Assembly: GCA_945883785.1 (NCBI GenBank)
Contig: CAMCYD010000009.1
Coordinates: forward strand, 1 to 34,378
Source of the DNA: Helicobacter pylori PMSS1
GTDB taxonomy: Bacteria; Campylobacterota; Campylobacteria; Campylobacterales; Arcobacteraceae
DNA: 34,378 nucleotides
Reading direction: 5' to 3'
Below, piece by piece: positions 5,651 through 32,520 of this stretch; position 1 is the first letter of the stretch; the number at the start of each line of letters is the position of its first letter. The position numbers were made by a program, and so were the translations under genes. The notes beneath the pieces were generated by a model. It searched no databases, was not told the origin of the DNA, and saw nothing but the letters and a program-made list of their open reading frames with translations.

Positions 5651-6955
5651 ATGAAATTTTATAACAGAGAAAAAGAACTCCAACATTTAAGAGCAATTGA
5701 GCAATCATCGCAAATCACATCAAAAATGACAATCATTGTTGGACGAAGAAGGATTGGAAAAACAAAACTTATTAAAGAGGCATTTGCCCAAAAAGTCTAT
5801 CTCTTTATCTCAAAAAAAGATGAACGGATGTTATGTGAAGAGTTTGTCGAAATCATTGCAAAAGAACTCAACATCAAAGTATTAGGGGAATTTAGAAGTT
5901 TTAAAAATCTATTTGAATATTTGATGCAACTCTCCATCACACTTCATTTTACACTGGTACTTGATGAATTTCAAGAGTTTCTCTCTATCAATAGCTCCAT
6001 CTATAGTGATATGCAAAACATTTGGGATGAGTACAAAGACAAATCAAAAATGAACCTTGTGCTCAGTGGTTCAATCTATAGCTTAATGAAACGAATCTTT
6101 GAAGATAAAAAAGAGCCTTTATTTGGTAGAGCTGATAATAAAATCCATCTCAAGCCTTTTAGTGTTGTTACACTTAAAGAGATACTAGCAGATTACAATC
6201 CAAACTTTTTAAACCAAGATTTACTTTCATTTTATATTTTAACAGGTGGAGTTGCTAAATATGTAGAACTCTTTGTAGAGAAAAAAGCTTTCACATTTGA
6301 AGAGCAACTAGAAACGATCTTTGATGAGTTTTCATTATTTTTAGAAGAGGGGAAAAATCTTTTGATAGAGGAATTTGGAAAAGAGTACACCACTTATTTT
6401 TCTATTCTTTCACTTATCGCTTCAAGTAAAACATCAAGAAGCGATATAGAATCTATACTAGGGAAAAACATAGGTGGATATCTTGATAGACTCGAAAATG
6501 AATATACACTTATCAAGAAAATAAAACCAATCCTTGCAAAAGAGGGTGGTAGAGTTGTTAAATATGAGATCATTGATAACTACTTCTCTTTTTGGTTTCG
6601 TTTTATCTACAAATACAAAAGTGCCATAGAAATTGAAAATTATGAGTATGTAAAAGAGATTGTTAAAAGAGATTTCTCAGTTTTTAGTGGTAAATTTCTT
6701 GAAAAATATTTTGTGGAACTTTTAAAAATCAAAGGTGAATATTCTCAAATAGGTACCTATTGGGAGAAAGGAAATCAAAATGAGATTGATATAGTTGCTC
6801 TTAATGAAACCCAAAAACAACTCACTTTTATAGAAGTGAAACTGAGTAAAAGAAAAATTGATCTTGAACTTTTAAAACAAAAATCTTTGAAATTAGTAGA
6901 TAAGTTTGGTGGATATGAGAGTGAATATAGAGGATTCAGCTTAGAGGATATGTGA
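5651..6955 (+). CDS. DUF234-type AAA ATPase with PD-(D/E)XK-like C-terminal domain
   Basis: A 434-residue protein from the ATG at 5651 (AAAGAG upstream; a GTG two codons earlier is possible). Residues 3-12, FYNREKELQH, are the usual start of the archaeal-type ATPase family. The Walker A motif is GRRRIGKT (31-38) and Walker B is TLVLDEFQ (101-108). The middle region (winged-helix-like, LTGGVAKYVELF) leads to a C-terminal DUF234 domain in which NEIDIVALNE and LTFIEVKLSKRK supply the D...ExK pattern of a PD-(D/E)XK nuclease fold. Length and domain order are normal for the family. Such ATPases are common in mobile DNA of archaea and bacteria; no precise role is established. It stands alone behind an inverted repeat. 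Confidence 0.85.
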   Translation: MKFYNREKELQHLRAIEQSSQITSKMTIIVGRRRIGKTKLIKEAFAQKVYLFISKKDERMLCEEFVEIIAKELNIKVLGEFRSFKNLFEYLMQLSITLHFTLVLDEFQEFLSINSSIYSDMQNIWDEYKDKSKMNLVLSGSIYSLMKRIFEDKKEPLFGRADNKIHLKPFSVVTLKEILADYNPNFLNQDLLSFYILTGGVAKYVELFVEKKAFTFEEQLETIFDEFSLFLEEGKNLLIEEFGKEYTTYFSILSLIASSKTSRSDIESILGKNIGGYLDRLENEYTLIKKIKPILAKEGGRVVKYEIIDNYFSFWFRFIYKYKSAIEIENYEYVKEIVKRDFSVFSGKFLEKYFVELLKIKGEYSQIGTYWEKGNQNEIDIVALNETQKQLTFIEVKLSKRKIDLELLKQKSLKLVDKFGGYESEYRGFSLEDM

Positions 6956-7573
6956 TAATTATCAATTTGTTTCATGCTTTAATTTCTCAAAATCTCTTTG
7001 AGTTTATTCATCTTTAGTTTCCATATATACTCCAAAATAATTTTGGAGGTAGTGTATATCTTGAAACTTATTCACCAACTAAACAATCCAAATTCGTTTC
7101 ATTATTACCTCAAAAATTGGAAACATAATTGTGAAACAAGTGGAAAGATGTTAGTGAAATGAGTGTGAAATCTTTATCCACATGACCCATTTTATTGCTT
7201 CAAAAAATGCTCTAGCTCACACATTTTACAGCTCGCAATTTAATCAATTCAAACAACTTTTCATGCATTCCAATATAGCCTTTCCAATAGACGTATTTAT
7301 TCTACAAAACAGATAGATGCAAAGGCAAAAAGTATCTCTTGTCTCACCACTTTTTGAAGCTTTGGCACTACATGTAAAGGTGACTTGAGGGGGTATCTTT
7401 TGTTCTTCAAATATCACGACTAAAGGCATTTTTTGTCTTTCGATTTTAATCTCCAAGTTGATGTTTTGGACTATAAATTTTTAAATCTTAGATCGCTTTT
7501 TCTCTTGTTCATTTTCCATTTTTTGATGCTTTTTGTAGTTTCAAAAAAGTAAAACAAAGGGGGGGGGTCAACG
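6956..7573. other. 618-bp intergenic region without a convincing gene
   Basis: It contains a hairpin at 7030-7048 (CTCCAAAAT, A, ATTTTGGAG) without a T-run, several scattered TGAAAC/GTTTCA words between 6970 and 7140, a perfect TTATCCACA at 7174-7182 and the G9 tract at 7559-7567. A rightward frame from 7182 reads well but is broken by TAG at 7314 and a later TGA, so it may be gene debris. A 70-codon leftward frame (7244-7456) overlaps it and is not convincing. Confidence 0.5.
7559..7567 (+). repeat. Poly-G tract (9 G) next to a start codon
   Basis: Nine consecutive G residues end 6 nt before the ATG at 7574. In Campylobacterota, tracts of about eight or more G residues are classic slipped-strand sites that switch genes on and off. 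Here the tract lies at the ribosome-binding position rather than inside the frame, so length changes would alter ribosome-site spacing or strength. Confidence 0.7.
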
Positions 7574-7957
7574 ATGATAAAAGATAGCTGGTTATGTAAG
7601 AAAGTGAGAGGTCTTGGATTCTCTCTAATTGATGGTTGTCTAAGTGATAAAATGAAAGCAGAAGTGCTTGATGTGTTCACAAAAGATATACAAACAATAA
7701 GCATAGCAGAAGAGATTTTGCGCGATGACGAAAGTGGGTTTTGTGTTGCTTCAGAGATGTCGCAAGAGGTCACTTTGTGTCATGAAAAAGTTGCTGAACT
7801 TGAGCTTAAAGTGGTGGAGATGAAGAGGGTGTTACTGCTACAACCGTTGCACATTGGGATGCTTAAGAAAGTGGTTAGTATGCACGAAAATAAGAGTGCT
7901 GAAAACCACTCAAACAGAGCGAATAAAATTAAAAAAAAAGGAGATTGTAAAAAATGA
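7574..7957 (+). CDS. Hypothetical protein of putative mobile element
   Basis: A 127-residue soluble protein that I do not recognise. The N-terminal half (KVRGLGFSLIDGCLSDKMKA, EVLDVFTKDIQ) looks globular. A helical region (HEKVAELELKVVEMKRVLLL) with coiled-coil character follows, then a basic end rich in Lys and Asn. There is no Shine-Dalgarno other than the G9 tract, which sits at the right distance. Its TGA overlaps the next ATG (ATGA), so the two genes form an operon. The coding strand is G-rich compared with the neighbours at 9094-10611, consistent with acquired DNA. Confidence 0.5.
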   Translation: MIKDSWLCKKVRGLGFSLIDGCLSDKMKAEVLDVFTKDIQTISIAEEILRDDESGFCVASEMSQEVTLCHEKVAELELKVVEMKRVLLLQPLHIGMLKKVVSMHENKSAENHSNRANKIKKKGDCKK

Positions 7958-8658
7958 GTTTCATAAATAATAAGCTAGAACTACCAGATGACCTCAAAGT
8001 AAAATTTGCTGGTTATCAATATCCAGGTGATGTGATTACTATGCTTAGTAGTCCTCCAAAAATTGCTGCGTTTCTTGTTTTCATGATTAAAGCGCTGAAC
8101 GGTTATGAGATTAGATTTAACAATAAAGACATTGATATGATGCCAATTATCACATATATCGATGACAAGGTTTGGACACAATATATAGTGCTTGATCACA
8201 ACTTTTTTGTGCAAACTTTGGGTCAATATACTGAACATTTTTACAAGGGAACAGGGCGACAATTGGTCGAGGATTTTGCAATCAATCCAGAGATTAAAAG
8301 TAACAAAGCAAATGCTATTTTTCTAAACTACAACTATCTGCAAAATGTGCTTGGATTAACATATATTAATACTCCAAGTAACAAACTAAGTGTGCCGTTT
8401 GTTAAGTTCGGAACACCTAGTATTTTTGAGAATGATAAAACAACTGTAGAGTTTACAGCAATTAATTTTCACGCAATGAGACTTGAAAAAGTAGTTGGTG
8501 AGCAGATTGTTGATGAGTTAATAAGGTTCGGGTATATTTCAAATGCAGTACAAGTTGCATTTGGGAAAGCTGCTACTACTTATTTTGCTGATAAAAAGTT
8601 GAAAAAGAAGTATTTTATGGTAATGGACCAAATTACTGTATTTACAAATTTTCAATAA
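7954..8658 (+). CDS. Hypothetical protein, 234 residues
   Basis: A soluble alpha/beta protein with no recognised family. Segments such as IAAFLVFMIKALNGYEIRF, MPIITYIDDKVWTQYIVLDH and VEFTAINFHAMRLEKVVGEQ alternate strands and helices. A conserved-looking FVKFGTPSIFEND lies in the middle. AAGGAG lies upstream of its ATG, which overlaps the preceding stop codon. There are no membrane segments. The two-gene operon followed by hairpin-rich DNA and a membrane coiled-coil gene suggests a plasmid, phage or integrative-element module; a replication or mobilisation role is possible but no motif shows it. Confidence 0.6.
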   Translation: MSFINNKLELPDDLKVKFAGYQYPGDVITMLSSPPKIAAFLVFMIKALNGYEIRFNNKDIDMMPIITYIDDKVWTQYIVLDHNFFVQTLGQYTEHFYKGTGRQLVEDFAINPEIKSNKANAIFLNYNYLQNVLGLTYINTPSNKLSVPFVKFGTPSIFENDKTTVEFTAINFHAMRLEKVVGEQIVDELIRFGYISNAVQVAFGKAATTYFADKKLKKKYFMVMDQITVFTNFQ

Positions 8659-8705
8659 TTTTTTTTGTACTAAATAGATTTAAATCGATTTAGAAGCTTC
8701 TAAAT

Positions 8706-8735
8706 AGTTTTAATTAGTTTTAATTAGTTTTAATT
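8706..8735. repeat. Three tandem copies of AGTTTTAATT
   Basis: Exact 10-bp direct repeats at 8706, 8716 and 8726, followed by a degenerate fourth. The period is close to one helical turn, as in iterons, and the repeats sit in very AT-rich DNA. Confidence 0.65.
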
Positions 8736-17672: not shown

Positions 17673-17771
17673 AAGATTCACACTTATCGCAATTAATCAG
17701 AAATTGTCTAATTAATCAACAAATCCAAATTTCTAATGTATAATTATTTATCAATTCAAAAAGGTCAAACT

Positions 17772-18074
17772 GTGTTAGAACAAAAAGAGATACTATCAAA
17801 ATTAAAAGAACTAAAACCAACCTATGAAAAGGAGGGTTTAATTTTAGTTGGGCTATTTGGTAGCTATGCAAAAGAAACTCAAAGTACTTTTAGTGATATT
17901 GATATTGCATACAAACTTGATTATGATAGATTTTCTAAAAATTATAAAGATGGTTTTTCAAAGATTTTACGAATTGATGATATAAAAGAAGAACTGCAAC
18001 AAACTTTTAACACAAAGATTGATTTTGTACCAGATAATAATAAATCTATTTTAAGTGATATTATCTATGTCTAG
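17772..18074 (+). CDS. mntA: MntA-type nucleotidyltransferase antitoxin
   Basis: About 100 residues from the GTG at 17772, which has AAAGG 7 nt upstream; an ATG at 17736 has no ribosome site. It is a minimal nucleotidyltransferase: LVGLFGSYAKETQSTFSDID holds the GS(x10)DxD signature, with the third Asp in KIDFVPD. In MntA-HepT systems this antitoxin AMPylates a Tyr next to the HEPN active site of its partner and silences it. Its stop overlaps the partner start by 8 nt, the normal arrangement. Confidence 0.85.
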   Translation: MLEQKEILSKLKELKPTYEKEGLILVGLFGSYAKETQSTFSDIDIAYKLDYDRFSKNYKDGFSKILRIDDIKEELQQTFNTKIDFVPDNNKSILSDIIYV

Positions 18075-18423
18075 TGCTATAAATAAACTTGATAAAATAA
18101 TAGAATCTATCGATAATATAAATTTCATACTTGAAAGTAAAGAGATAAAAATCACACAAGCTATTGAAGATAAAATCATCAAACCCGCTATTAGAATGAA
18201 TATTGTTAGAATCGCTGAACAATTTTCAAAACTCAAAGAAGATAATGAATTTAAAATCCTTGAATGTTTTTCAAGTAATGATTTAAAAGGGATAAGTGCC
18301 GTGAGAAACTATATTGCTCATGATTATGATAGCACTGATGATAATATTATAGAGGATGTTATCAGATATAACTTACCTATATTTAAAGAGATTATTGAAA
18401 AGATTAAAATAGATAATTGCTAG
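18067..18423 (+). CDS. hepT: HepT-type HEPN ribonuclease toxin
   Basis: A 118-residue helical protein from the ATG at 18067 (an in-frame GTG at 18055 is possible). The HEPN signature is intact: SAVRNYIAHDYD gives R80, H85 and Y87, the Rx4HxY motif; the Tyr is the known AMPylation target in this family. Other helices (MNIVRIAEQFSKLKED) fit the four-helix bundle. It is a predicted tRNA- or mRNA-cutting toxin held in check by MntA, with which it overlaps. A weak hairpin (GGGT, TAAG, ACCC) followed by ATTTTT at 18485-18502 may end the transcript. Confidence 0.85.
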   Translation: MSSAINKLDKIIESIDNINFILESKEIKITQAIEDKIIKPAIRMNIVRIAEQFSKLKEDNEFKILECFSSNDLKGISAVRNYIAHDYDSTDDNIIEDVIRYNLPIFKEIIEKIKIDNC

Positions 18424-18564: not shown

Positions 18565-18939
18565 TTAGTTTCTTACACTAAATGGCTGCACCAATATTTC
18601 CAATGGAATATGTAAACCATGAGATAAATTTCTAATCATTGTCAAAGATAAAGCTATTTTTCTATTTAAAACTTCAGAAACTTTACTTTTATTTCCCACA
18701 TAAGGGATTAAATCTTTTTGTTTTAGATTCATTTGTTCCATACGATACTTAATCGCTTCAATTGGATCTGGAATTGAAATAACCCAATTTAACTCTTCAT
18801 ATTTTTCAATAAGTAAAACTAAAACTTCAAGCTTATTGCTTTCATTTGTACCCATCTCTGGATTTAAATCCATAAGCTCATCTACTCTTGCAAGTGCTTC
18901 ATCATATTCTATTTCGTTGTTAATAGGTTTTAATATCAT
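18565..18939 (-). CDS. higA: HigA antitoxin (XRE-type)
   Basis: A 124-residue protein. The N-terminal helical part (LKPINNEIEYDEALARVDEL, MDLNPEMGTNESNKLEVL) is followed by a helix-turn-helix, YRMEQMNLKQKDLIPYVGNK with SKVSEVLNRKIALSLTMIRN, exactly the form of HigA antitoxins of this subtype. It binds and inhibits HigB and represses the promoter. AAGGAG before its ATG lies in the end of higB. The toxin-first order is typical of higBA. Confidence 0.9.
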   Translation of the reverse strand: MILKPINNEIEYDEALARVDELMDLNPEMGTNESNKLEVLVLLIEKYEELNWVISIPDPIEAIKYRMEQMNLKQKDLIPYVGNKSKVSEVLNRKIALSLTMIRNLSHGLHIPLEILVQPFSVRN

Positions 18940-18941
18940 TG

Positions 18942-19235
18942 TTATATCTCCTTTGCATTTATTTTATCATATCCACTGTGAGTGCCAATAAACTTAACTC
19001 TCACTATCTTTCGCAAATAATCTATATGAACAATCAATCTATAATCGTTCCCTTTGATATTAAAAACTACCCTATTATCTTCTAAAAAAGAAGCACTGTT
19101 ATATATCTTTTTAATATCTTCTGGTGTTTTCCAATCAGCTTTTCTTGTATCCATATGCCACACTTCTAGTGGCGTTTTTGCTTGTGGATGTTTCTCATAA
19201 AATTCGACTAAAGTTCTTCTGCTTATCACATTCAT
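18942..19235 (-). CDS. higB: HigB mRNA interferase toxin
   Basis: A 97-residue RelE-fold protein: MNVISRRTLVEFYEKHPQAK at the start, LEVWHMDTRKADWKTPEDIK, then NRVVFNIKGNDYRLIVHIDY and KFIGTHSGYDKINAKEI. These are hallmark segments of the HigB toxin that cuts mRNA on the ribosome. The gene ends 2 nt before higA and is transcribed from the region 19236-19356. Length is normal and the sequence is intact. Confidence 0.92.
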   Translation of the reverse strand: MNVISRRTLVEFYEKHPQAKTPLEVWHMDTRKADWKTPEDIKKIYNSASFLEDNRVVFNIKGNDYRLIVHIDYLRKIVRVKFIGTHSGYDKINAKEI

Positions 19236-21950: not shown

Positions 21951-22121
21951 AAATTAAGTTAATTTTGTCTTCTCGGATAAGGGTCACGACTATAAATACC
22001 TAAACATTTTCTTATTGAGGCTATTATATATCTATTTAGTCAATACCTTGTAATAATCTTATTAGAGTTTTTTTGAATATATGATATGATTAGAATCGAT
22101 TGTTTGGATTAGGATTTGTAT

Positions 22122-22649
22122 ATGGCGTATATTATAAGTATTATTATTACTATTATTGCTTCTTTATTTATCCTTATTTCAAGATATGAAGTCAATACAA
22201 CTAGTATTCAAAATGAACTAACCCAACTAAAAGTTATGGTTAGTAAAGTTGATAGTTTTGTTGATGCGTATTTAAGTGTTGGTGAAAATTTAACTATTAT
22301 AAATTTTCAAGTCCTAAACTCAGGACACTATTTATTGAGCAATTCTATAATTTTTGGAACTTCATTTGGTTCAACTATGAAGTTCAATGGGAGCGATATT
22401 GTTTGGCATCTCATACCAAATATGAGTGACTCAACATCGTATAAATTGATGATTGATATGAGTTCAAACAAAACACTGATGGAGAAGCCTGCTTTTGCTG
22501 AGATGTTTGTGGGAACTAAATTGTGTGAAAAACTTCTTTTTGGAGATTTTAATACTTTCATCAATACTTACGATGGAGTCAATACAAATTTTATCAGTGT
22601 CAATGGAACAAAAACCGATGGAATTATAGGATGTACAGTATATAAATAA
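22122..22649 (+). CDS. Pilin-like protein 1 (leaderless)
   Basis: A 175-residue protein from the ATG at 22122 (AGGA 7 nt upstream; a TTG two codons earlier is possible; TAG lies in frame 12 nt upstream). The hydrophobic helix starts at once (MAYIISIIITIIASLFILIS) and runs into an amphipathic helix, the shape of a mature type IV pilin but without a basic leader, Gly at -1 or Glu at +5. The globular part has two Cys (GTKLCEKLLF and IIGCTVYK). Its second half is homologous to residues 90-176 of the protein at 29653-30774: SDIVWHLIPNMSDS matches TDMIWQVIPNPADS. It is the first gene of the pilus operon. Confidence 0.65.
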   Translation: MAYIISIIITIIASLFILISRYEVNTTSIQNELTQLKVMVSKVDSFVDAYLSVGENLTIINFQVLNSGHYLLSNSIIFGTSFGSTMKFNGSDIVWHLIPNMSDSTSYKLMIDMSSNKTLMEKPAFAEMFVGTKLCEKLLFGDFNTFINTYDGVNTNFISVNGTKTDGIIGCTVYK

Positions 22650-22662
22650 TAAAGGAAAAAAG

Positions 22663-23316
22663 ATGCCTCAACTCATTGCCATGATAATAATTGTAGTGGT
22701 TGCTATGATTTACATGTTTCAAACATTTGGTGGTACAGGAGATAAAATAACTGCAGTAGCGAAAAAATCAGTTATTGTTACAGAGATAAACAATATCAAA
22801 AGTGGTGTTAATTTAGCAAATGAAAGTGGTCATCTTGAAATTGTAACTGGAACAGATACAAACAAAGCGCATACACTAGAAGGTTTAGCAACATTAGGTT
22901 ATTTTGACAAACTTATAAACGACCAACTCACGAACTCTGTGGACACAAGAAATACTGCAGGTGATGATACTTTCAATGCCTATAAAGCTATCTCTTTTGG
23001 TGGAGATACAACAACTACAGCAGGTGATGTGGAGATATCTTTAGTTGCTCCAACAGCAGCTGCAACGACAGATAAACCAGGAATCCTAGTAAGTATTGCA
23101 AATGGTTTAGCTGACCAAGCTGGATTTTTAGAAGCTCAACTTGCAACAGATTTAGCTTCAATCGCTTACATTGATAGAAATGCTACTACAGTAACAGATA
23201 AAACAACTTTTGATGCTGACGGGGTAGTTTCTGGTACGACAGGAACCCATACAGGAACTGATACTGATGGAAAGTTTACTATCTATTTTAAAGATATTAA
23301 AGCTGGAAAGCTATAA
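22663..23316 (+). CDS. Pilin-like protein 2, probable major pilin (leaderless)
   Basis: A 217-residue protein beginning MPQLIAMIIIVVVAMIYMFQ, a membrane helix starting at residue 3, followed by an amphipathic helix (TAVAKKSVIVTEINNIKSGV) as in type IVb pilins, then a globular part rich in Thr, Asp and Gly. AAAGGA precedes the ATG, and the frame upstream is closed by a TAG without another start, so no leader can be encoded. There are no Cys. Size and place between another pilin-like gene and the secretin gene suggest the main filament subunit. Confidence 0.65.
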   Translation: MPQLIAMIIIVVVAMIYMFQTFGGTGDKITAVAKKSVIVTEINNIKSGVNLANESGHLEIVTGTDTNKAHTLEGLATLGYFDKLINDQLTNSVDTRNTAGDDTFNAYKAISFGGDTTTTAGDVEISLVAPTAAATTDKPGILVSIANGLADQAGFLEAQLATDLASIAYIDRNATTVTDKTTFDADGVVSGTTGTHTGTDTDGKFTIYFKDIKAGKL

Positions 23317-23325
23317 GGTATCACT

Positions 23326-24990
23326 ATGAATAAATTCATCAAACCTACTGTTTTATCATTTTGCTCACTTCTTTTTCTTGTTAGTTGTACTTCTAAAACT
23401 TTCAATGAACAAATGGACGAAAAAGGGAAGAAAAATATAAACAGTAAGGTTTATGAAAAAATCAAAGATTCTTATTCTGAGTCGATTATCAATCAAGCTG
23501 ACCCAAAAAAAACTTATGTAAATATTTTGGAAGATAAAGCACTCAGCTCAGTTTTAAAAGAGCTCGAGCTTATCGATGGGAATTATTATTTTTTAAAAAC
23601 AGGTGACTTTCTTATCCCAAAAAGTAGAATCAAAATAAGCTCTCTCAAACAACTCAATGATTATCTTGCTGTTGTTTTAGGAAAAGTTTTTGTGATAGAA
23701 AGAACCGATTCTTTAAGTTTAGTAAGTTTAGTAGATAAAAGTGAAAGCAAAAAAATATTTTTTTCAAAAATTCCATTTATACTTGAAGGGGATATTACGA
23801 TACAAGAGCTCAGTAAACTTATCACTTCAAGCTCTGGATTTGAAATATCTATCGATAAATATATCTCTGATTTAAAAGATTTCAAAGAAGATATGATCTC
23901 GATAAAAACAGATAATCTCCTCGATGCTATTGATACTTTAGCAAACAATAAAAACTTTTATGTCGATATCGATTACAATGAAAAAAAAATCCACCTCTCA
24001 AAATATAAAGATGTTGTTATCGAACTCAATATCCCAATGCTCAATCTTAAAACATCCAATACAACCTCTTCACAAGAACTTTCAGGGGAAAATAAAGTTG
24101 AAAATCAATCATCACTTTATCTCTATGATGAGTTAAATCAGATTCTCACAAATATCATCAAAAATGACACAACTTCCTCTTTTCACATTGATAAATCAAG
24201 TGGACTTATTTATCTAAAATCAACAAAAGCAACAGAAGAAGCGGTTAGAAATATTACAAAAGCATATGAAGAGAGTTTTTCTAAAGAAGCTGTTATAGAG
24301 TTTGAAAGAATTGAACTTATTTTGAACAAAAATCAAATATACGGTATCGCTTCACTTGTAGCGACAGGAAAAGATGAAAAAGGGGGAACAACAACGGGGA
24401 CAATAAGTAGTAATTCTCCTAATATCACTGCTGAGGGAAGTTTGAGTTTTAGTAAACTGACAAGTTTAACTGCTATTGCCAACAATCAAATTGGTTATCT
24501 TTTAAATTACAGCAAAAACCTTATAGTTTTGAAAAACAATATCCCAACTGTCCAATCTCTTAGTCAAAATACAGACTATATCTCTCAACTTAATAAAACA
24601 GTAAGTGAAAATAATAGTGTTAGTACAAGTGTTGTAGTCAATACTATTAAAGATGGGACTTCAATCACTGCTGTTGCAAAAATAAGTAGAGATAAAATCT
24701 TTTTAAATATCTCTCCTAGCATCAAAAAATTTATAAAGTTCAACAATGCCACTTTTGAAACATCAACAATACAACTTCCAGAATACAAAGACCAAAGTTA
24801 CAATATTTCAAAAGAGATAAATCTTGGGGAGAGTGTGATTGTTGGTTCTATCATTGTCCACGATGATGCCAAAGATTATACTGGTATTTTACCGATAGAT
24901 TCTTTTGCTATTGGGGGGACTGATTCAAAAACTTATGTCAGAAGAGAGATAGTGTATGCTGTCACATTAAAAAGTCTTAAAGGTTTTTAA
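23326..24990 (+). CDS. Lipoprotein secretin (PilN/BfpB/GspD-like outer-membrane channel)
   Basis: A 554-residue protein with a lipoprotein signal (SLLFLVSC, Cys 21). The first 300 or so residues hold N0/N1-like domains (TIQELSKLITSSSGFEISID and the repeat around SSGLIYLKSTKATEEAVRNI). The C-terminal third is a secretin domain, with STIQLPEYKDQS followed by INLGESVIVGSIIV, the well-known region of the secretin beta-barrel. Lipoprotein secretins of this length are typical of type IVb pilus systems (R64 PilN, BfpB). It would form the outer-membrane pore for the pilus. Its stop overlaps the next start as TAATG. Confidence 0.82.
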   Translation: MNKFIKPTVLSFCSLLFLVSCTSKTFNEQMDEKGKKNINSKVYEKIKDSYSESIINQADPKKTYVNILEDKALSSVLKELELIDGNYYFLKTGDFLIPKSRIKISSLKQLNDYLAVVLGKVFVIERTDSLSLVSLVDKSESKKIFFSKIPFILEGDITIQELSKLITSSSGFEISIDKYISDLKDFKEDMISIKTDNLLDAIDTLANNKNFYVDIDYNEKKIHLSKYKDVVIELNIPMLNLKTSNTTSSQELSGENKVENQSSLYLYDELNQILTNIIKNDTTSSFHIDKSSGLIYLKSTKATEEAVRNITKAYEESFSKEAVIEFERIELILNKNQIYGIASLVATGKDEKGGTTTGTISSNSPNITAEGSLSFSKLTSLTAIANNQIGYLLNYSKNLIVLKNNIPTVQSLSQNTDYISQLNKTVSENNSVSTSVVVNTIKDGTSITAVAKISRDKIFLNISPSIKKFIKFNNATFETSTIQLPEYKDQSYNISKEINLGESVIVGSIIVHDDAKDYTGILPIDSFAIGGTDSKTYVRREIVYAVTLKSLKGF

Positions 24991-26006
24991 TGCTTCTCTT
25001 TAGTGACCCTTATGAAGAGTTTTTGTTTGATTACCTTATCACAAAACTAGAAAATGGTTCCAATACAAAACAAGCTCTTGAGTTATATCAAGAGCAAATT
25101 CCATCCTCATCAGCACTCAAAAAGAAACTCAAAAATGTTATAGATGCTCTCGAATCTGGAAAATTAAAACTTGAAGAGATTTTATTTGAACAAAAGATGA
25201 TAAACTCTTTCCAATATGGGCTTGTCAAACATAGTATAAGTACACTAGATGGTTTAAACCTCATACGATCCCTTAAAAAATCAAATTCAAGTTTGATTAT
25301 AAATATGGTCTATCCAATATTTATCCCTCTTATTGTGGTTATTCTTACTTTTTATGGATTGATACTTTATCTTGATATTTTAGAACGAGAACTAACAACT
25401 ATGGGGAAAGTCAATCCACTTATTCATGAATTTATCAATCTTCCCCCCTATTTCAACTTCACATTTGCATATGGTGGATTGTTTCTTTTTAGTATGATTA
25501 CTCTGTTTATTTTAGTTGGGTATCTTTATTCCCATCAATACAAACCAGCTTGGCTTTATAAAGTTTTAAAAACACAAGTCTATAGTGATGGAAGATTTGC
25601 ATTTAAAATAATCTATGAGATGCTTAAAGTTGGGATACCGCTTCACAATATCGCTGAAGTTTTAGCTAAAGATTATGGTCAAGTAGGTTTACGAAGTTTT
25701 TTTGATGATTTATCCAAAACTATCAAAGCTGGAAAACCAATCTATCTTGTATTTGAAAAATACAATTTTCCACCACTGTTGACTATTGATGTAAAGATTT
25801 CAGAATTAAATCAAACAAGTTACCTTGATATCATAAATGGTTTAGAAAAAACATCGGTGATGATGTATGAAAAAAGTATTGAATATATAACTCTCCAATG
25901 GTATCTTATCTTTTGGCTGATAGCTTTTGTTTTTGTAATTGTTATTGGTTCTGATATGATAAATTTACTTGTAAGTTCTTTTACTTTCAAGTTACTTTAT
26001 AGTTAG
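24990..26006 (+). CDS. GspF/PilC/PilR-like inner-membrane platform protein
   Basis: A 338-residue protein with the T2SSF domain layout: an N-terminal cytoplasmic helical repeat (KNVIDALESGKLKLEEILFE), a membrane helix (VYPIFIPLIVVILTFYGLIL), a second one (LFLFSMITLFILVGYLY), the second cytoplasmic repeat (MLKVGIPLHNIAEVLAKDYG, LSKTIKAGKPIYLVFEKYNF) and a C-terminal helix (YLIFWLIAFVFVIVIGSDMI). The duplicated cytoplasmic repeat is diagnostic. It anchors the assembly ATPase at the membrane. It overlaps the secretin gene and is followed 8 nt later by the ATPase gene. Confidence 0.85.
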   Translation: MLLFSDPYEEFLFDYLITKLENGSNTKQALELYQEQIPSSSALKKKLKNVIDALESGKLKLEEILFEQKMINSFQYGLVKHSISTLDGLNLIRSLKKSNSSLIINMVYPIFIPLIVVILTFYGLILYLDILERELTTMGKVNPLIHEFINLPPYFNFTFAYGGLFLFSMITLFILVGYLYSHQYKPAWLYKVLKTQVYSDGRFAFKIIYEMLKVGIPLHNIAEVLAKDYGQVGLRSFFDDLSKTIKAGKPIYLVFEKYNFPPLLTIDVKISELNQTSYLDIINGLEKTSVMMYEKSIEYITLQWYLIFWLIAFVFVIVIGSDMINLLVSSFTFKLLYS

Positions 26007-26014
26007 GAAAAATT

Positions 26015-27547
26015 ATGCTTGCATATGAAGAAGAGTCTCTAATCCCAATCATCAATGAAGTTATAAATAAAAAGTATGGACTCAAAGATGGTTATTCAAA
26101 TCTTATAGCAAATGAGCAACTTTATAGCCAATTTGTACAAAGTTTAGGGTATGAATATTATGATTCATACAATGATTTGAGTGAAAATTATCTCACAATT
26201 ATAGAAAAACTTGATGAAGAAAAACTTCATCTTTGCATTAAAAATCATGTTTTGCCACTTGAAGATAAAAGAACAAAAAATAAAATTTTAGCAATTAGAG
26301 ATATTGCAAATACAAATTTTAAAGTTCTAAATCAATTTTATTTTATGAAAATAATTATTCTTGGGACAAATCTTTTATCGGAAATATTTACAAAAATAAA
26401 TGATATCTCCCTTGATGAAATCAATACAAAAGAAGATGATGATTATATTGACGAGTATCTCAATAAAATACTTTCACAAGCTATTTTAATGGGTGCTTCT
26501 GATATTCATATCCAGAAAATGAATCAATCAGCTTTTGTTTGGTTTAGAATAGATGGGGTAAAAATCGATATTGGAACTATGAAAATTACAACCGCAAAGA
26601 TACTCAAACGAAAATTGGTTACCTTAGCTAATCAAGAAGATTCTGACTTTGACTCAATAAATGGGATTATCAGTTATCTTGATGGACATAAAGAGGTAAA
26701 ATTTCGACTTGGGGTGATTAATTCAAAACTTAATTTTACAGTCACTTTACGACTTATTGGTGGAAAGATGGTCGTTTCTTCTGATTTAAAAGAGCTTAAT
26801 TATCCTTTGCCTGTTGTGGAAGTTTTAGAAAATTTAATAAAATTTGACAATGGAATGGTACTTATTACAGGGCAAGTTGGTTCTGGTAAAACACATTTGA
26901 TGTATGCTTTACTCAAACAACTTGCTCAAAAAAGAAAATATATAGTGACGATTGAAAATCCTGTCGAGTATGTCGATGATGCTTTTTTTCAGATAGATTT
27001 ATCAGAACACGAATCTGCTTCCCTAGAGCATCAATACAGTTACCCACAAGCTGTTGTTGATATTTTACGACAAGATTCAAACATCATCCTTATAGGAGAG
27101 ACAAGAGAACCCCAAACAGCTTTTCAATTAGTCAATGCTGCCAATCTTGGGCAACTTGTATTTTCAACAATGCATACAAACTCAGCAAGAGGAACCGTTT
27201 CACGGATGATAAGTTCACTTGGAATTCAAAAAGGGGATATCGTCGATGAACTCAGAGGGATTGTGGCTCAAAAATTAGTTCGGAAACTGTGTTCAAATTG
27301 TAAATTAAGTGATGATGAGGGTGGTTATAAAAAGAATGGTTGTGAACAATGTAATAATACAGGTTTCAAAAATCGAGTTCCTGTTGTTGAAGTGATAAGA
27401 TTCAAACTCTCAGGTGGTGGAGACTTTGAAGACCCTGCTGAATACATAACACTCGAAGAGGGAACAATGTTACAATATAAAGCTGGCTTTGTCTCAAAAG
27501 AGGATGCTCTTTCAATTATAAATGGAAAAGAATTATGGTTCGATTAA
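26015..27547 (+). CDS. GspE/PilB/PilQ-like assembly ATPase
   Basis: A 510-residue secretion/pilus ATPase. Motifs are complete: Walker A GQVGSGKT (286-293), the Asp-box region VTIENPVEYV, Walker B NIILIGETRE (356-365) and the His box FSTMHTNSA (383-391). A zinc-binding loop has four Cys (C426, C429, C443, C446), as in PilB/GspE. The middle domain GASDIHIQK and RLIGGK fit the N2 region. Only one ATPase is present in the operon and no PilT-type retraction paralogue was seen. It drives pilin insertion through the platform protein. Its end overlaps the next start by 13 nt. Confidence 0.92.
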   Translation: MLAYEEESLIPIINEVINKKYGLKDGYSNLIANEQLYSQFVQSLGYEYYDSYNDLSENYLTIIEKLDEEKLHLCIKNHVLPLEDKRTKNKILAIRDIANTNFKVLNQFYFMKIIILGTNLLSEIFTKINDISLDEINTKEDDDYIDEYLNKILSQAILMGASDIHIQKMNQSAFVWFRIDGVKIDIGTMKITTAKILKRKLVTLANQEDSDFDSINGIISYLDGHKEVKFRLGVINSKLNFTVTLRLIGGKMVVSSDLKELNYPLPVVEVLENLIKFDNGMVLITGQVGSGKTHLMYALLKQLAQKRKYIVTIENPVEYVDDAFFQIDLSEHESASLEHQYSYPQAVVDILRQDSNIILIGETREPQTAFQLVNAANLGQLVFSTMHTNSARGTVSRMISSLGIQKGDIVDELRGIVAQKLVRKLCSNCKLSDDEGGYKKNGCEQCNNTGFKNRVPVVEVIRFKLSGGGDFEDPAEYITLEEGTMLQYKAGFVSKEDALSIINGKELWFD

Positions 27548-28266
27548 TTACAACCGACTGTTTTTATAATAGTAATAATAATGAAACTCTTCAAGATGGT
27601 ATTAAAATATTTGTATATCATGATTTTAAAGAACACTCTTCTATAGTCTCTAAAGATAATTTAAAAGATACTCTTTATTCCCTCAATATTGTCTCAAAAA
27701 CTCATCTTCCAAAAGAGAAGTTTCTCATCTATATGAACGATTTTGAATATTCAATTTGTTTCAATCACAAAACAATCTATTCCCTTAGACTTAGTGAAAC
27801 ATTTAAAATCAATGATATTATAAAATCAGTTCTTATCACCAAAAATCTTATTACGCTTCTTAGTGCTGGAGAGATAGATAAAGTGTATTATATTATAGAT
27901 TCAAAATATGAGGAACTCTATAAAAATCTTTTAGAAGAAAACCTCAAAAATGCTCAAGATAAGTGTATTGTTGAAAGAGTAGGAACTACTGAACATCTTG
28001 TAAAAAAACTCCCAGAACTTGAAACACTCAGCAAATTCCTTTTCAAATATTTGACTTTAGTGATAACATTTATAATAGCAATATTTATCACTTTTAATAC
28101 ATTTAATCAAGATAGAGTTAACTGTTATGAACTCTCTCAAAAAGATAAACTTTTGACAAAAATAAATCGACAAAATATTCAACTCAAAATAAATGAAGAA
28201 AATTTTGCGATACTCAATCAAAAATATTTTACCCACTTTGAATGTATCCAAAAGGATAAAAAATGA
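27535..28266 (+). CDS. PilM/PilN or GspL-like bitopic assembly protein
   Basis: A 243-residue protein: about 165 cytoplasmic residues, then one membrane helix (FKYLTLVITFIIAIFITFNT), then a short periplasmic coiled coil (LLTKINRQNIQLKINEEN). This is the layout of GspL, or of a PilM-PilN fusion, in which the cytoplasmic part binds the ATPase. The ASKHA motifs of PilM are not evident, so the call rests on topology and position. It overlaps both neighbours (13 nt upstream; ATGA downstream). Confidence 0.62.
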   Translation: MVRLITTDCFYNSNNNETLQDGIKIFVYHDFKEHSSIVSKDNLKDTLYSLNIVSKTHLPKEKFLIYMNDFEYSICFNHKTIYSLRLSETFKINDIIKSVLITKNLITLLSAGEIDKVYYIIDSKYEELYKNLLEENLKNAQDKCIVERVGTTEHLVKKLPELETLSKFLFKYLTLVITFIIAIFITFNTFNQDRVNCYELSQKDKLLTKINRQNIQLKINEENFAILNQKYFTHFECIQKDKK

Positions 28267-28760
28267 TAAGTATTAAACAAAATTACTTCAAAATTATCCT
28301 CTTATCATTATTATTTTATAGTGTAGGGTTGAGTCTCTATTCATTTTTAAGAGAGTATCAAAATCGTAATGAAATCCTTAAAACAAATCAATTACTAGAA
28401 CTTCAGCTAGAAAATATCTCAGCTAAAAATAAAATTTTAATAGAAGGGATAGCAAAAAAAGTTGATGATATATCCAAAATAGAGGATAGTTACGATACTG
28501 AAAAAAATGTTAAACTTAAACTTGAAAGAATTTTCAAAAGGCTCTCTTTCCAACAAAAAATCACCTTAATATCACTCAATAAATTGTGTATAGATCATTA
28601 TATTATCGTGGCAAAAGTTGATTCAAATCACCAAGAAGTTATAGAGAGTTTTAGAGAAATTCTATCTCATTTGGGTACAGTAAAACAAAGTGATAAAGAT
28701 AAAAAAATACTCTATATTGACTATATAATGGAGAAAAATAAGGGGAAAAACAATGGATAA
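28263..28760 (+). CDS. PilO/GspM-like alignment protein
   Basis: A 165-residue bitopic protein: a short cytoplasmic start, one membrane helix (FKIILLSLLFYSVGLSLYSF), a coiled coil (ELQLENISAKNKILIEGIAK) and a small ferredoxin-like alpha/beta domain (ITLISLNKLCIDHYIIVAKV). This is the standard design of PilO/GspM, which bridges the platform to the secretin. It starts within the stop codon of the preceding gene and overlaps the next by 8 nt. Confidence 0.65.
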   Translation: MISIKQNYFKIILLSLLFYSVGLSLYSFLREYQNRNEILKTNQLLELQLENISAKNKILIEGIAKKVDDISKIEDSYDTEKNVKLKLERIFKRLSFQQKITLISLNKLCIDHYIIVAKVDSNHQEVIESFREILSHLGTVKQSDKDKKILYIDYIMEKNKGKNNG

Positions 28761-29274
28761 AATAAAAATACTACTAGGGACAATTTTCATAGCTAGTTTG
28801 CTTTATGGTGGGGATAAACTAGATAATTTAGATAAAAAAACGGAAGAATTTTATAAAAATATCTCAAAAATAGAGGTTTCTTCTCCACCCTCAAATTCAG
28901 CAATAAAAAGTAAAACAACGACTAAAGAAAAAACGACACCCAAAGAAACTTCAAATGATACAAAAGGGATAACAGATACAAAAGAGACTATATCAAATAA
29001 TCAAAAAACAACTTCAAGTTTTTCAGATGAAAACAAAAAATTTCAAAACTTGAAAATTTCAAGTATTTACACCTTTAATGGGAAAAATTATGTTGTTTTT
29101 GCCACACAAGATGCCGATGGAAGATATACACAAAATGATACTATTCTTGGTTATACTATTGATGCGATTAATACAACAACAAAAACAATAAGTCTCTCAA
29201 AAGAGCAAGATAAAAATACGAAGTATTATTTGGACATAAGTCCTGAGGGGATCTCATGGAAAAAGAATCGTTAA
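28753..29274 (+). CDS. PilP/GspC-like periplasmic protein
   Basis: A 173-residue protein with an N-terminal hydrophobic signal (ILLGTIFIASLLYGG), a Thr/Ser/Lys-rich linker (about 50-95) and a small beta-domain: ISSIYTFNGKNYVVFATQDA, then YTQNDTILGYTIDAINTTTK and ISLSKE. This is the HR-type domain of PilP/GspC, which docks onto the secretin N0 domain. Its end overlaps the next gene. Sequence identity is low, so the call relies on the domain pattern and gene order. Confidence 0.62.
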   Translation: MDKIKILLGTIFIASLLYGGDKLDNLDKKTEEFYKNISKIEVSSPPSNSAIKSKTTTKEKTTPKETSNDTKGITDTKETISNNQKTTSSFSDENKKFQNLKISSIYTFNGKNYVVFATQDADGRYTQNDTILGYTIDAINTTTKTISLSKEQDKNTKYYLDISPEGISWKKNR

Positions 29275-29615
29275 CGCATTCACTTGATTTTATTGATGAG
29301 ATTTTTAAAACTTTTTTCGATTTTAATATCATTTTTGTACCAAATGGTGATGGAAAAGTTGTTTTAAACTATCGATATATCCAAGAAGCACAAATTGAAA
29401 TTGCAAATAAAATCTCTTTTATCCAAACCCTTGTAGATGATACACTCAAAAAGCAACTCATTTTTTTTGATATTTCTGATATTCTTATAGAACTTGAAAA
29501 TCCAAATTTCAATACCATTGATAGTGAACAAATACTCTCTTTACTCAATAAATTAGCCATCAAATATAAAAATTTTAATGAGATACAAATAAAGATACGA
29601 GTTGAAAATAGATAA
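29256..29615 (+). CDS. Small cytoplasmic protein at the end of the pilus operon
   Basis: A 119-residue soluble, mainly helical protein without signal peptide or membrane helix; it contains LDFIDEIFKTFFDFNIIFV and an acidic helix-rich remainder. Its ATG lies 19 nt inside the preceding gene, so it belongs to the operon. No family is recognised; a cytoplasmic accessory or regulator of the ATPase complex is possible. It is the last gene before the convergent pilin-like adhesin. Confidence 0.6.
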   Translation: MEKESLTHSLDFIDEIFKTFFDFNIIFVPNGDGKVVLNYRYIQEAQIEIANKISFIQTLVDDTLKKQLIFFDISDILIELENPNFNTIDSEQILSLLNKLAIKYKNFNEIQIKIRVENR

Positions 29616-29652
29616 AATTTGCTAAATAAATAATCTATTTACAAATCAAAAT

Positions 29653-30774
29653 CTATTTATCTTCTATCGTTGGAGCTTTATTTTGTGTAGGTTCAACAAC
29701 ATAAACCTCATTATCGTTATCAACATCTACTGCATTAATATCAAGATAAGTCAAAGTATCATGTTTTAAGGTACAACTTCCATCGTTGCTTCTATAAAAT
29801 GTAAATGACTCATGATAATCTGTAGTAGATACATTATTTTCGCTTGTCCCTTCTGTAATTGTTTTACATACAGTTGGAATATCTGAAGTTCTTGTATAAT
29901 CAACACTTCCACTTGCAAATATCACTAAAGGTTCATTTATACCTTTATCTTCTAGTGTTGGAGCTTTATTTTTTGTTGGTGCTATGACAAAAATATCATT
30001 ACTATTATCTACATCAACCGTATCAATATCACTATAACTAAATGTTGCATTTTTAAGGGTACAACTTCCGTCATTACTTTGATAAAATGTGAATGTTTCA
30101 TTTATATTTGAAGTAGATACACTATCTTGGGCCGTATCTTCAGTAATAGTTTGACACGCAACTGGGTTATCGGTACTTCTAGTATAATCAACACTTCCCC
30201 ATGCAAATATGGTTAAAGTTGTAGTTATTGGTGGAGTTATAATCGTTCCATAAGTAAAGGTACAAGAGAAAACCCCATCTTCATTTGTCCCAGCAAGAGC
30301 ATAATCATCGCCATCATAATACAAAGCATTTGTTTCAAAGACACCGTTATAAAGGATAGAACAATAGTATGCTCCAAAATAGTTTTCCACAAATTTTGGA
30401 TTTGCCATTAGGATTTTATTATTTCTAAAATCCCCTAATATTTTACAGGAATGAGAAGAATCAGCTGGATTTGGGATAACTTGCCAAATCATATCGGTAC
30501 TTTTTAGGGTAATTTGTGTGTTATATCCAGTTCCTGTGATAGTTGTATTGTGAAAGATAATATTATCATTGTTGATTTTTTCAAAATCTATTTGCTTTAT
30601 TTGTCCAAGGGAATTTGAGTCTGCCCATTTATTTATAAACGAAGTAACTTTTCCAAAAGCCAACCCTAAATGTTCAGTTTCATATTTTAGAAAATCATTA
30701 CTTCCATCATATTTTGTAAAAATAATTATGATGCAGAGTGCTATTGCTAAAATTACTGCTATTAGAAAAGGCAT
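29653..30774 (-). CDS. Modular pilin-like adhesin with tandem C-terminal repeats (leaderless)
   Basis: A 373-residue protein. It starts MPFLIAVILAIALCIIIIFT, a membrane helix from residue 2 with TAA directly upstream, so no leader exists. Residues 30-176 are homologous to pilin-like protein 1 of the operon (TDMIWQVIPNPADS, GVFSCTF). Residues 188-283 and 284-373 are two repeats of a 96-residue domain: IFAWGSVDYTRSTDNP and IFASGSVDYTRTSDIP, each with Cys pairs, NDGSCTLK, DVDN and an NKAPT(L/I)EDK end. This suits a tip pilin whose repeat number can change. It faces the pilus operon and is transcribed on its own. Confidence 0.68.
   Translation of the reverse strand: MPFLIAVILAIALCIIIIFTKYDGSNDFLKYETEHLGLAFGKVTSFINKWADSNSLGQIKQIDFEKINNDNIIFHNTTITGTGYNTQITLKSTDMIWQVIPNPADSSHSCKILGDFRNNKILMANPKFVENYFGAYYCSILYNGVFETNALYYDGDDYALAGTNEDGVFSCTFTYGTIITPPITTTLTIFAWGSVDYTRSTDNPVACQTITEDTAQDSVSTSNINETFTFYQSNDGSCTLKNATFSYSDIDTVDVDNSNDIFVIAPTKNKAPTLEDKGINEPLVIFASGSVDYTRTSDIPTVCKTITEGTSENNVSTTDYHESFTFYRSNDGSCTLKHDTLTYLDINAVDVDNDNEVYVVEPTQNKAPTIEDK
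29656..30213 (-). repeat. Two tandem 288-bp coding repeats
   Basis: The 96-codon repeat units of the pilin-like adhesin, at 29926-30213 and 29656-29925 (the second lacks the last six codons). The protein sequences are clearly alike along their whole length, so the array could expand or contract by recombination. Confidence 0.7.
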
Positions 30775-30943: not shown

Positions 30944-31243
30944 CTATTTTTTTCGTACCTCAAACAACTCGTCATCTCTAACTTTTAAAAGTTGTTCACT
31001 CTCTTCTAGTGAATCTAAACCTCTTAATACATCTATGAACTTCTCCAAAGTTATTTTTCCACTTATTTCAAATTCTTGATACGAGCGAAAACTCATTCCA
31101 ATATGTTCGGCGAACTGTTTTTGGGTACCATATCGTGAACTATTTCTTTTTCGTTTATCTTTTGCTCTTTGGGCTAGTTCTTTAATAATCTCCTCAGTTG
31201 TTGCCAAAGAAAAATCTAATTGCTTAAAATCTATTTCTTGCAT
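30944..31243 (-). CDS. hipB: HipB-like XRE antitoxin
   Basis: A 99-residue protein with a helix-turn-helix, RYGTQKQFAEHIGMSFRSYQ followed by EFEISGKITLEKFIDVLRGL, and a Lys/Arg-rich linker before it. It overlaps the end of the HipA gene by 13 nt and is translated after it, the reverse of the common hipB-hipA order. It should bind HipA and the promoter region upstream of hipA. Confidence 0.8.
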   Translation of the reverse strand: MQEIDFKQLDFSLATTEEIIKELAQRAKDKRKRNSSRYGTQKQFAEHIGMSFRSYQEFEISGKITLEKFIDVLRGLDSLEESEQLLKVRDDELFEVRKK

Positions 31244-32520
31244 AAATTGACTCCTGTACTAAAGTTTTCATCTACGATTTTTGTATCATTAAGTATTTGT
31301 ATTGCAAATTCTTTAGGAATACCAAGATTTATACACTCATTCACTAGTTTTGTATTTTTTAGTTCACACAACTTTTCTATATTTTCTTTTAAAAATGACT
31401 CATTTATATTGTATGGTTTAAAAGCATTTTTCAAATCATTAAATGTTGCACGATTCAGCACTTTGTTTCCAAGTAACATTTGATGATACCCATTACTTGT
31501 ATATGTTAAATCATATGCAGGAGCAAAAGACCAGATTCCCACTCTATTCATAAGAAACGAAAAGTTTTTTGAATGGTCATCCCTATTTCCAAAAATTGCA
31601 TTAAATAAAATTACCTTTGCCATTTGTTCTTTTTCTTTTTGAGGTAAGTTAAGCTTATTAGCAATTCTAAATATATCCATATAGTCGTTATATGTCTCGC
31701 TTGGGTTATAATGCATCATTCCAGAGAGTGAATGGATATGAAACCTCTCATTATCTTTTCTATCGAATCTATATGTTAAAAAATGGCTTTGTCCATCATA
31801 TTCTAAGAGTTCACATGGACTCATGGTAATGCCAGCCTCTTTAGCAAAAAGATGATAGAGATATTCTAACTTTGTTGGAACTGATGCATCTTTATACTTC
31901 CCAGCCAAGTTAGGATAGATAGATATATCTCCATCATCATACTTGATAATAACAGGATAATACCCTTTAGGAAAGTCCTCTTGTTTTCTAGTCAAACTTA
32001 TTGTTTTATCAATAGGGTTAAATCCTACTATTGCTTTTGCCCTAGCTCCACCACCTGCGGAATTTGAAACAGCAATAAGTGTTTTTAATGTTGGTATAGA
32101 GTAATTATTGTCTTCATGCCCTTGATTCAATAGTTTTTTAGATTCGTTATAAAGTTCCGATATATTTAATATCTTTTTATAATCATCTGTTTTGTGTGGA
32201 GGATGAAACTCTAAAGCACCTAATGTATGAGTTCCCAAAAATTGTAATCTCTCCATAATAGTAGGCTTTCTTTTTAAATGTTCAAACATAAAACGATCCA
32301 TATAATCCATACCGTAACTTCCAGGTAAATGATCACTAATTAAGCCAGGCAGTCCATATTGATAAGCCAGGTGAGAAAATTCATAGATTTTTTTATTTGT
32401 GGCAGGCATTTTTATAGGAGAGAAATCAAGTCTATTAGTATCTAAATATTTGAACTTGATTATCCCTTTATGCTCTATAAGTTGACCTATATCTTCTCCC
32501 CAAGCTTTTACATAAATCAT
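31231..32520 (-). CDS. hipA: HipA family serine/threonine kinase toxin
   Basis: A 429-residue HipA protein. The N-subdomain precedes the activation segment with the autophosphorylated Ser (VSNSAGGGARAKAIVGF, residues 151-167). The catalytic loop GNRDDHSKNFSFL (311-323) and the metal-binding PAYDLTYT (334-341) are intact, as is the ending typical of the family. HipA phosphorylates an aminoacyl-tRNA synthetase in E. coli; targets differ in other subgroups. AAGGATAAAA precedes the ATG. The dyad at 32535-32582 is a likely HipB operator. Confidence 0.92.
   Translation of the reverse strand: MIYVKAWGEDIGQLIEHKGIIKFKYLDTNRLDFSPIKMPATNKKIYEFSHLAYQYGLPGLISDHLPGSYGMDYMDRFMFEHLKRKPTIMERLQFLGTHTLGALEFHPPHKTDDYKKILNISELYNESKKLLNQGHEDNNYSIPTLKTLIAVSNSAGGGARAKAIVGFNPIDKTISLTRKQEDFPKGYYPVIIKYDDGDISIYPNLAGKYKDASVPTKLEYLYHLFAKEAGITMSPCELLEYDGQSHFLTYRFDRKDNERFHIHSLSGMMHYNPSETYNDYMDIFRIANKLNLPQKEKEQMAKVILFNAIFGNRDDHSKNFSFLMNRVGIWSFAPAYDLTYTSNGYHQMLLGNKVLNRATFNDLKNAFKPYNINESFLKENIEKLCELKNTKLVNECINLGIPKEFAIQILNDTKIVDENFSTGVNLCKK

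Follow-up and report, generated by a model that had tools for sequence, protein, structure and literature searches.

Reviews of type IV filaments define pilins by a class III signal peptide and count the prepilin peptidase among the five ancestral parts of the machinery (PMC10191384, PMC4471445). The described systems closest to the locus analyzed here are the thin pilus of R64 (PilS/PilN/PilQ/PilR) and the MSHA pilus, both of which likewise possess a PilN/MshL-type secretin, a single GspE-type ATPase and a GspF platform. As in type IVb pili, the subunits encoded here (175-217 aa) are predicted to combine a long alpha1 helix with an alpha/beta domain, and they are accompanied by a candidate minor pilin with extra C-terminal domains, comparable to PilV. 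R64 PilS and PilV, however, have both a leader and Glu5 (GWAILE, GWASLE) and their operon encodes its own prepilin peptidase, whereas the operon described here has none of the three. A second point of comparison is the archaellum, in which ArlF and ArlG, two proteins not known to carry a class III signal peptide, are pilin-fold proteins derived from filament subunits; they are archaeal stator parts that function beside normally processed archaellins, whereas the operon described here showed no processed subunit. ArlF and ArlG are paralogous to archaellins (PMC12024892). Within the same phylum, the Cts natural-transformation system of Campylobacter and Aliarcobacter also employs type II secretion/type IV pilus parts, but it is apparently encoded by separate genes, and homologues of ctsD, ctsE and ctsG lie elsewhere in A. 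butzleri (PMC8308473).

The operon described here lies in a window of 34,378 nucleotides that makes up contig C9 in a draft genome of 2.65 Mb. We propose, with a probability of about two in three, that this operon encodes a type IVb/MSHA-like machine for assembling a filament out of pilins that have no class III signal peptide. Translation of the subunits begins right where the hydrophobic helix does, at a start that is conserved. The features of the locus are as follows:

22111..22114, plus strand: AGGA ribosome-binding site, 7 nt before the ATG at 22122; homologues have the same type of site
22122..22649, plus strand: leaderless pilin-like protein 1, 175 aa, beginning MAYIISIIITIIASLFILISRYE (MAYIIS start)
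22663..23316, plus strand: leaderless pilin-like protein 2, probable major subunit, 217 aa, beginning MPQLIAMIIIVVVAMIYMFQTFGGTGDKI (MPQLIA start)
23326..24990, plus strand: secretin of T4b/MSHA type with a lipobox-like N-terminus, FLVSC (TIGR02519 MshL 2.4e-12, TIGR02520 PilN 4.8e-6)
24990..26006, plus strand: GspF-like inner-membrane platform protein, 338 aa (PF00482 5.7e-5)
26015..27547, plus strand: GspE/PilB-type extension ATPase (PF00437 213 bits) with GQVGSGKT and CxxC...CxxC motifs
27535..28266, plus strand: bitopic candidate for an alignment-complex protein, PilN-like by position only; conserved in relatives, no family match
28263..28760, plus strand: bitopic coiled-coil protein, PilO-like by position only; conserved in relatives, no family match
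28753..29274, plus strand: signal-peptide protein, PilP-like by position only, 173 aa versus 268-351 aa in relatives
29256..29615, plus strand: small protein; relatives have proteins of 347-358 aa in this place, with which no sequence match was detected
29653..30774, minus strand: leaderless pilin-like protein 3, candidate tip/minor pilin, 373 aa, beginning MPFLIAVILAIALC (MPFLIA start)

The original prediction held that the three pilin-like proteins begin at the membrane helix with stops close upstream and that none of them has Gly or Ala at -1 or Glu at +5; both statements are borne out at 22122, 22663 and 30774. Ahead of the 22122 gene, an in-frame TAG at 22110 is followed by GAT TTG TAT ATG, and the sole alternative start, TTG at 22116, would add Met-Tyr. 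The 22663 gene starts with ATG; TAAAGGAAAAAAG lies closely upstream, and 12 codons ahead of the start there is an in-frame stop. On the minus strand, the ATG of the 30774 gene is immediately preceded by TAA, and its ribosome site is weak. A small ORF, MIKIELF, was considered as an in-frame neighbour before MPFLIA and was rejected, as translation places it in another frame.

The MP/MA start was then followed through homologues, 24 of which were aligned for family 1 (MPQLIA; 22663) and 24 for family 2 (MPYLV/MAYIIS; 22122 and its paralogue 30774). Met is followed by Pro, Ala or Gly in 48/48 aligned members (Pro 42, Ala 5, Gly 1). By comparison, residue 2 is Pro in 0/191 other ATG ORFs with an upstream AGG, GGA or GAG and is Ala or Gly in ~4%, a background from which M[PAG][YL] starts were excluded (a small bias) and in which related sequences are not independent. 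Family 1 begins M-P-(Q/L)-L-I-A in 24/24 members, with M1, P2, L4, I5 and A6 invariant in the alignment; every member starts with ATG and has an upstream in-frame stop within ~18 codons, and most have a GG(A)-type ribosome site directly upstream. Its helix is almost invariant and its globular domain variable. The family 2 gene lies upstream of the MPQLIA gene and begins M-[P/A/G] in 24/24 members (P 18, A 5, G 1), the individual starts being MPYLV, MPYIV, MPYFV, MAYFL, MAYIL, MGYFL or MPLLI, and nearly all of them carry AAGG(A) 5-9 nt ahead of the start; two further members have a TTG-CCA start. C135 and C171 (22122 numbering) are invariant in this family. The 22122 protein has a paralogue in the 30774 protein, which matches the family 2 profile from its Met with 186 bits and bears at its C-terminus two tandem repeats of ~85 aa (29653-30250, minus strand; FxxxSVDYTR...NKAPTxEDK).

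Across both families, residues 2-20 are free of D/E in 48/48 members and residues 2-18 are free of K/R. A leader is present in 0/48, and in all 48 members position 6 is occupied by A, S or G, leaving no Glu at mature position 5. A start-site error is rejected, as 48 homologues share the start, nearly all with a Shine-Dalgarno sequence and an in-frame stop nearby; likewise, an assembly error at the starts is rejected by the identical starts found across many independent assemblies, single-contig ones included. Because the leaderless start is conserved among homologues, we regard the question of the start as settled.

The machine attributed to the operon is recovered by profiles for the secretin, GspF and GspE, but not for the PilM/N-, PilO- and PilP-like genes, which match no profile and are plausible by order and shape. 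The secretin scores below the equivalog cut-off of TIGR02519 and aligns with the secretins of loci L027/L028 at hhalign probabilities of 100/99.8%; the platform protein falls slightly under the curated cut-off of PF00482 and aligns with the GspF proteins of the same loci at 97.6/98.2%. The extension ATPase matches PF00437 (5.6e-63) and TIGR02533 (3.7e-56). Three or four small genes after GspE are partly conserved among relatives. L027/L028 are T4b-like operons of genomes G043 (the genus of the window) and G075 (the same order), whose secretin, GspF and GspE are homologous to those of the window (hhalign 97.6-100%); in the G075 operon the globular domain of the pilin is probably homologous to the leaderless families as well. 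Unlike the leaderless families, the G043 and G075 pilins have a leader and Glu5 (MKKGITLIEII, MKKGFTILEVI, MRKAISMVEVI), and the gene order differs. No ordinary prepilin was seen in the leaderless-pilin operons that we read.

Leaderless pilin families are present in 25/104 sampled Arcobacteraceae genomes, and strong homologues of the secretin (E <= 1e-84) occur in exactly those 25/104. Only two other genomes have a secretin scoring above threshold (26-29% identity), among them G043, with ordinary prepilins in its operon. In a sample of 397 genomes from the phylum, strong matches to both pilin families were found solely within the Arcobacteraceae, and first scans of viral contigs, GspE-bearing genome contigs and plasmids yielded no hits; the leaderless-pilin machine is apparently restricted to this family. 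The closest operons come from genomes named Aliarcobacter, Arcobacter vandammei and Poseidonibacter lekithochrous and from Arcobacteraceae MAGs, which places the host of the window in the Arcobacteraceae.

The operons of relatives additionally encode signal-peptide proteins of 634-1183 aa, with RCC1-like propeller repeats in those scanned, which the window operon does not have. Large signal-peptide proteins lie at L023:4093-6780, L023:12415-14583, L092:12942-15749, L095:13321-16872 and L099:11296-15890; several end in YPTYIGGFxYxFxFK, and smaller neighbours (~240 aa) have a motif in common with them. Relatives also possess a third conserved short protein 3' of the MPQLIA gene, leaderless and with an N-terminal membrane helix, that is absent from the window (L092:10742-11488, L032:9945-10667, L099:10755-11321; starts MLGNIWLSSA, MFSNIFIKSA, MQALIVVLVL). 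Together, the repeat-bearing paralogue and the large RCC1-like proteins of relatives point to a putative function in adhesion or surface contact.

These large proteins bear on a different reading of the locus, in which the leaderless proteins are pilin-derived but non-polymerising, fixed in the inner membrane as parts of the machine, like ArlF/ArlG, and the surface or exported part is another protein, for example an RCC1 propeller protein. The loss of both Glu5 and the processing site would suit such a role, as would the large proteins in the operons of relatives, and archaellin-derived ArlF/ArlG do serve as stator parts (PMC12024892). We nevertheless consider this unlikely: the window operon has retained the pilins and the machine without any large protein, the near-invariant helix and variable globular domain of the major family resemble those of filament subunits, and ArlG itself has been described as filament-forming (PMC12024892).

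Searches of Pfam, NCBIfam and PDB sequences gave no pilin match for the leaderless proteins, and a Foldseek search of the PDB with the predicted models found no pilin. None of the 24 major-subunit members matched a Pfam family, PilS (PF08805) included; R64 PilS itself scores 134 bits. Neither leaderless family gave a direct profile match to R64 PilS/PilV. AlphaFold models of two of the proteins (pLDDT 82 and 89) have a pilin-length N-terminal helix (residues 2-55; 2-22 plus 26-52) and, after it, an alpha/beta domain. Homology between the two families is recovered by hhalign (95%, E 2e-8). Because Pfam, PDB sequences and Foldseek yielded no pilin, homology was sought among ordinary prepilins by scoring both family profiles against >100 real ORFs and 200 shuffles. 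For both profiles, the ordinary prepilin of G075 (MRKAISMVEVILV, MRKA/ISMVE) ranks first once the leaderless families are set aside; the match covers the globular domain, and its score is reached by 0/200 shuffles. With the family 2 profile the score is 33.0, where the best shuffle reaches 19.8 (22.4 in an earlier 120 shuffles); with the family 1 profile it is 23.9 against 22.7, a slight margin. Leaderless families and a duplicate form of the G075 prepilin aside, the rankings continue, among real proteins, with ordinary prepilins in L030 and L027. The G075 prepilin adjoins homologues of the window secretin, GspF and GspE. Since the globular domain matches this prepilin above all shuffles, pilin ancestry is probable: by sequence, descent from pilins is likely, though not certain, for both families, which have probably lost the leader. 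Furthermore, the invariant Cys pair of family 2 and the acidic C-flank of the helix would fit a periplasmic globular domain.

The absence of a prepilin peptidase, a further element of the original prediction, holds for the window but fails for the genome. A search of the whole assembly for the enzyme and for other pilin sets found a prepilin peptidase on contig C5 (47.5 bits), six N_methyl prepilin matches outside the window and two other GspE-type ATPases, one of which adjoins prepilins on contig C3. Ordinary prepilins on other contigs, taken with the missing pilin family or PDB match, would be compatible with a view of the leaderless proteins as unrelated bitopic membrane proteins, perhaps N-out/C-in, the true pilin being an ordinary prepilin encoded elsewhere. 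That view is quite improbable: the globular domain matches an ordinary prepilin, the Cys pair is invariant, the C-flank is acidic, and the C3 prepilins adjoin an ATPase of their own.

A prepilin peptidase is encoded in 25/25 carrier genomes, unlinked to the operon, as expected because ordinary prepilins are also present. The missing enzyme is rejected as proof of PilD independence, which we infer instead from the missing cleavage site, because every carrier has the peptidase and the leaderless subunits have no recognisable site for it. That this resident peptidase, PilD being encoded by every carrier genome, cuts at a cryptic site, either within the hydrophobic segment or behind residue 2 or 3, is very hard to credit, as no hydrophilic leader with Gly/Ala in a -1 context is present, most members have Pro as residue 2, and bacterial leaders are 6-26 residues long and end in Gly (PMC4471445).

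We return to the proposed type IVb/MSHA-like machine and its leaderless pilins. These subunits would insert N-in/C-out, and the prepilin peptidase, made for ordinary prepilins, would find no site in them. Methionine aminopeptidase prefers small second residues and would remove a Met that precedes Pro, Ala or Gly; alternatively, the pilins may stay unprocessed. The predicted mature end P1-Q2-L3-I4-A5 would align with that of a processed pilin, F1-T2-L3-I4-E5, minus Glu5. GspE and GspF would extrude the subunits through the secretin. The MPQLIA protein would be the major subunit, and members of the MAYIIS/MPFLIA family, one of which has repeat domains, would be minor or tip subunits. More speculatively, Met-Pro could substitute for both PilD steps, because a proline at the N-terminus presents a secondary amine, as does the first residue once PilD has N-methylated it. 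Glu5 mutants of known pilins form no homopolymers (PMC4471445), so assembly without Glu5 would need another contact. The more specific proposal of a filament class built from leaderless pilins only, in which methionine aminopeptidase replaces the prepilin peptidase and N-terminal proline replaces the N-methylated residue, is tentative, and we hold it at somewhat less than even odds.

The system would thus work like a type IV filament machine, yet it has neither the leader nor Glu5. Phrase searches of literature that included few subscription papers gave no mention of leaderless or PilD-independent pilins, and no paper on the Arcobacter system was found. A conserved machine without leader or Glu5 makes it testable what purpose cleavage and N-methylation serve, and what drives docking if not Glu5. 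Leader-motif searches for pilins miss such systems, and leaderless subunits suggest that a fibre may be made without a dedicated trimming enzyme.

Two further observations concern the integrity and surroundings of these loci. In genome G057 (L025, reverse complement, 6383-8718), a transposase-like ORF (6634-7836) interrupts the GspF gene while both pilins are intact; the split in GspF probably leaves this machine copy non-functional. The window operon is flanked by toxin-antitoxin-like pairs at 18565-19235 (minus), 17736-18423 and 30944-32520 (minus) which, judged from sequence, resemble HigB/HigA, nucleotidyltransferase/HEPN and HipA/HipB pairs.
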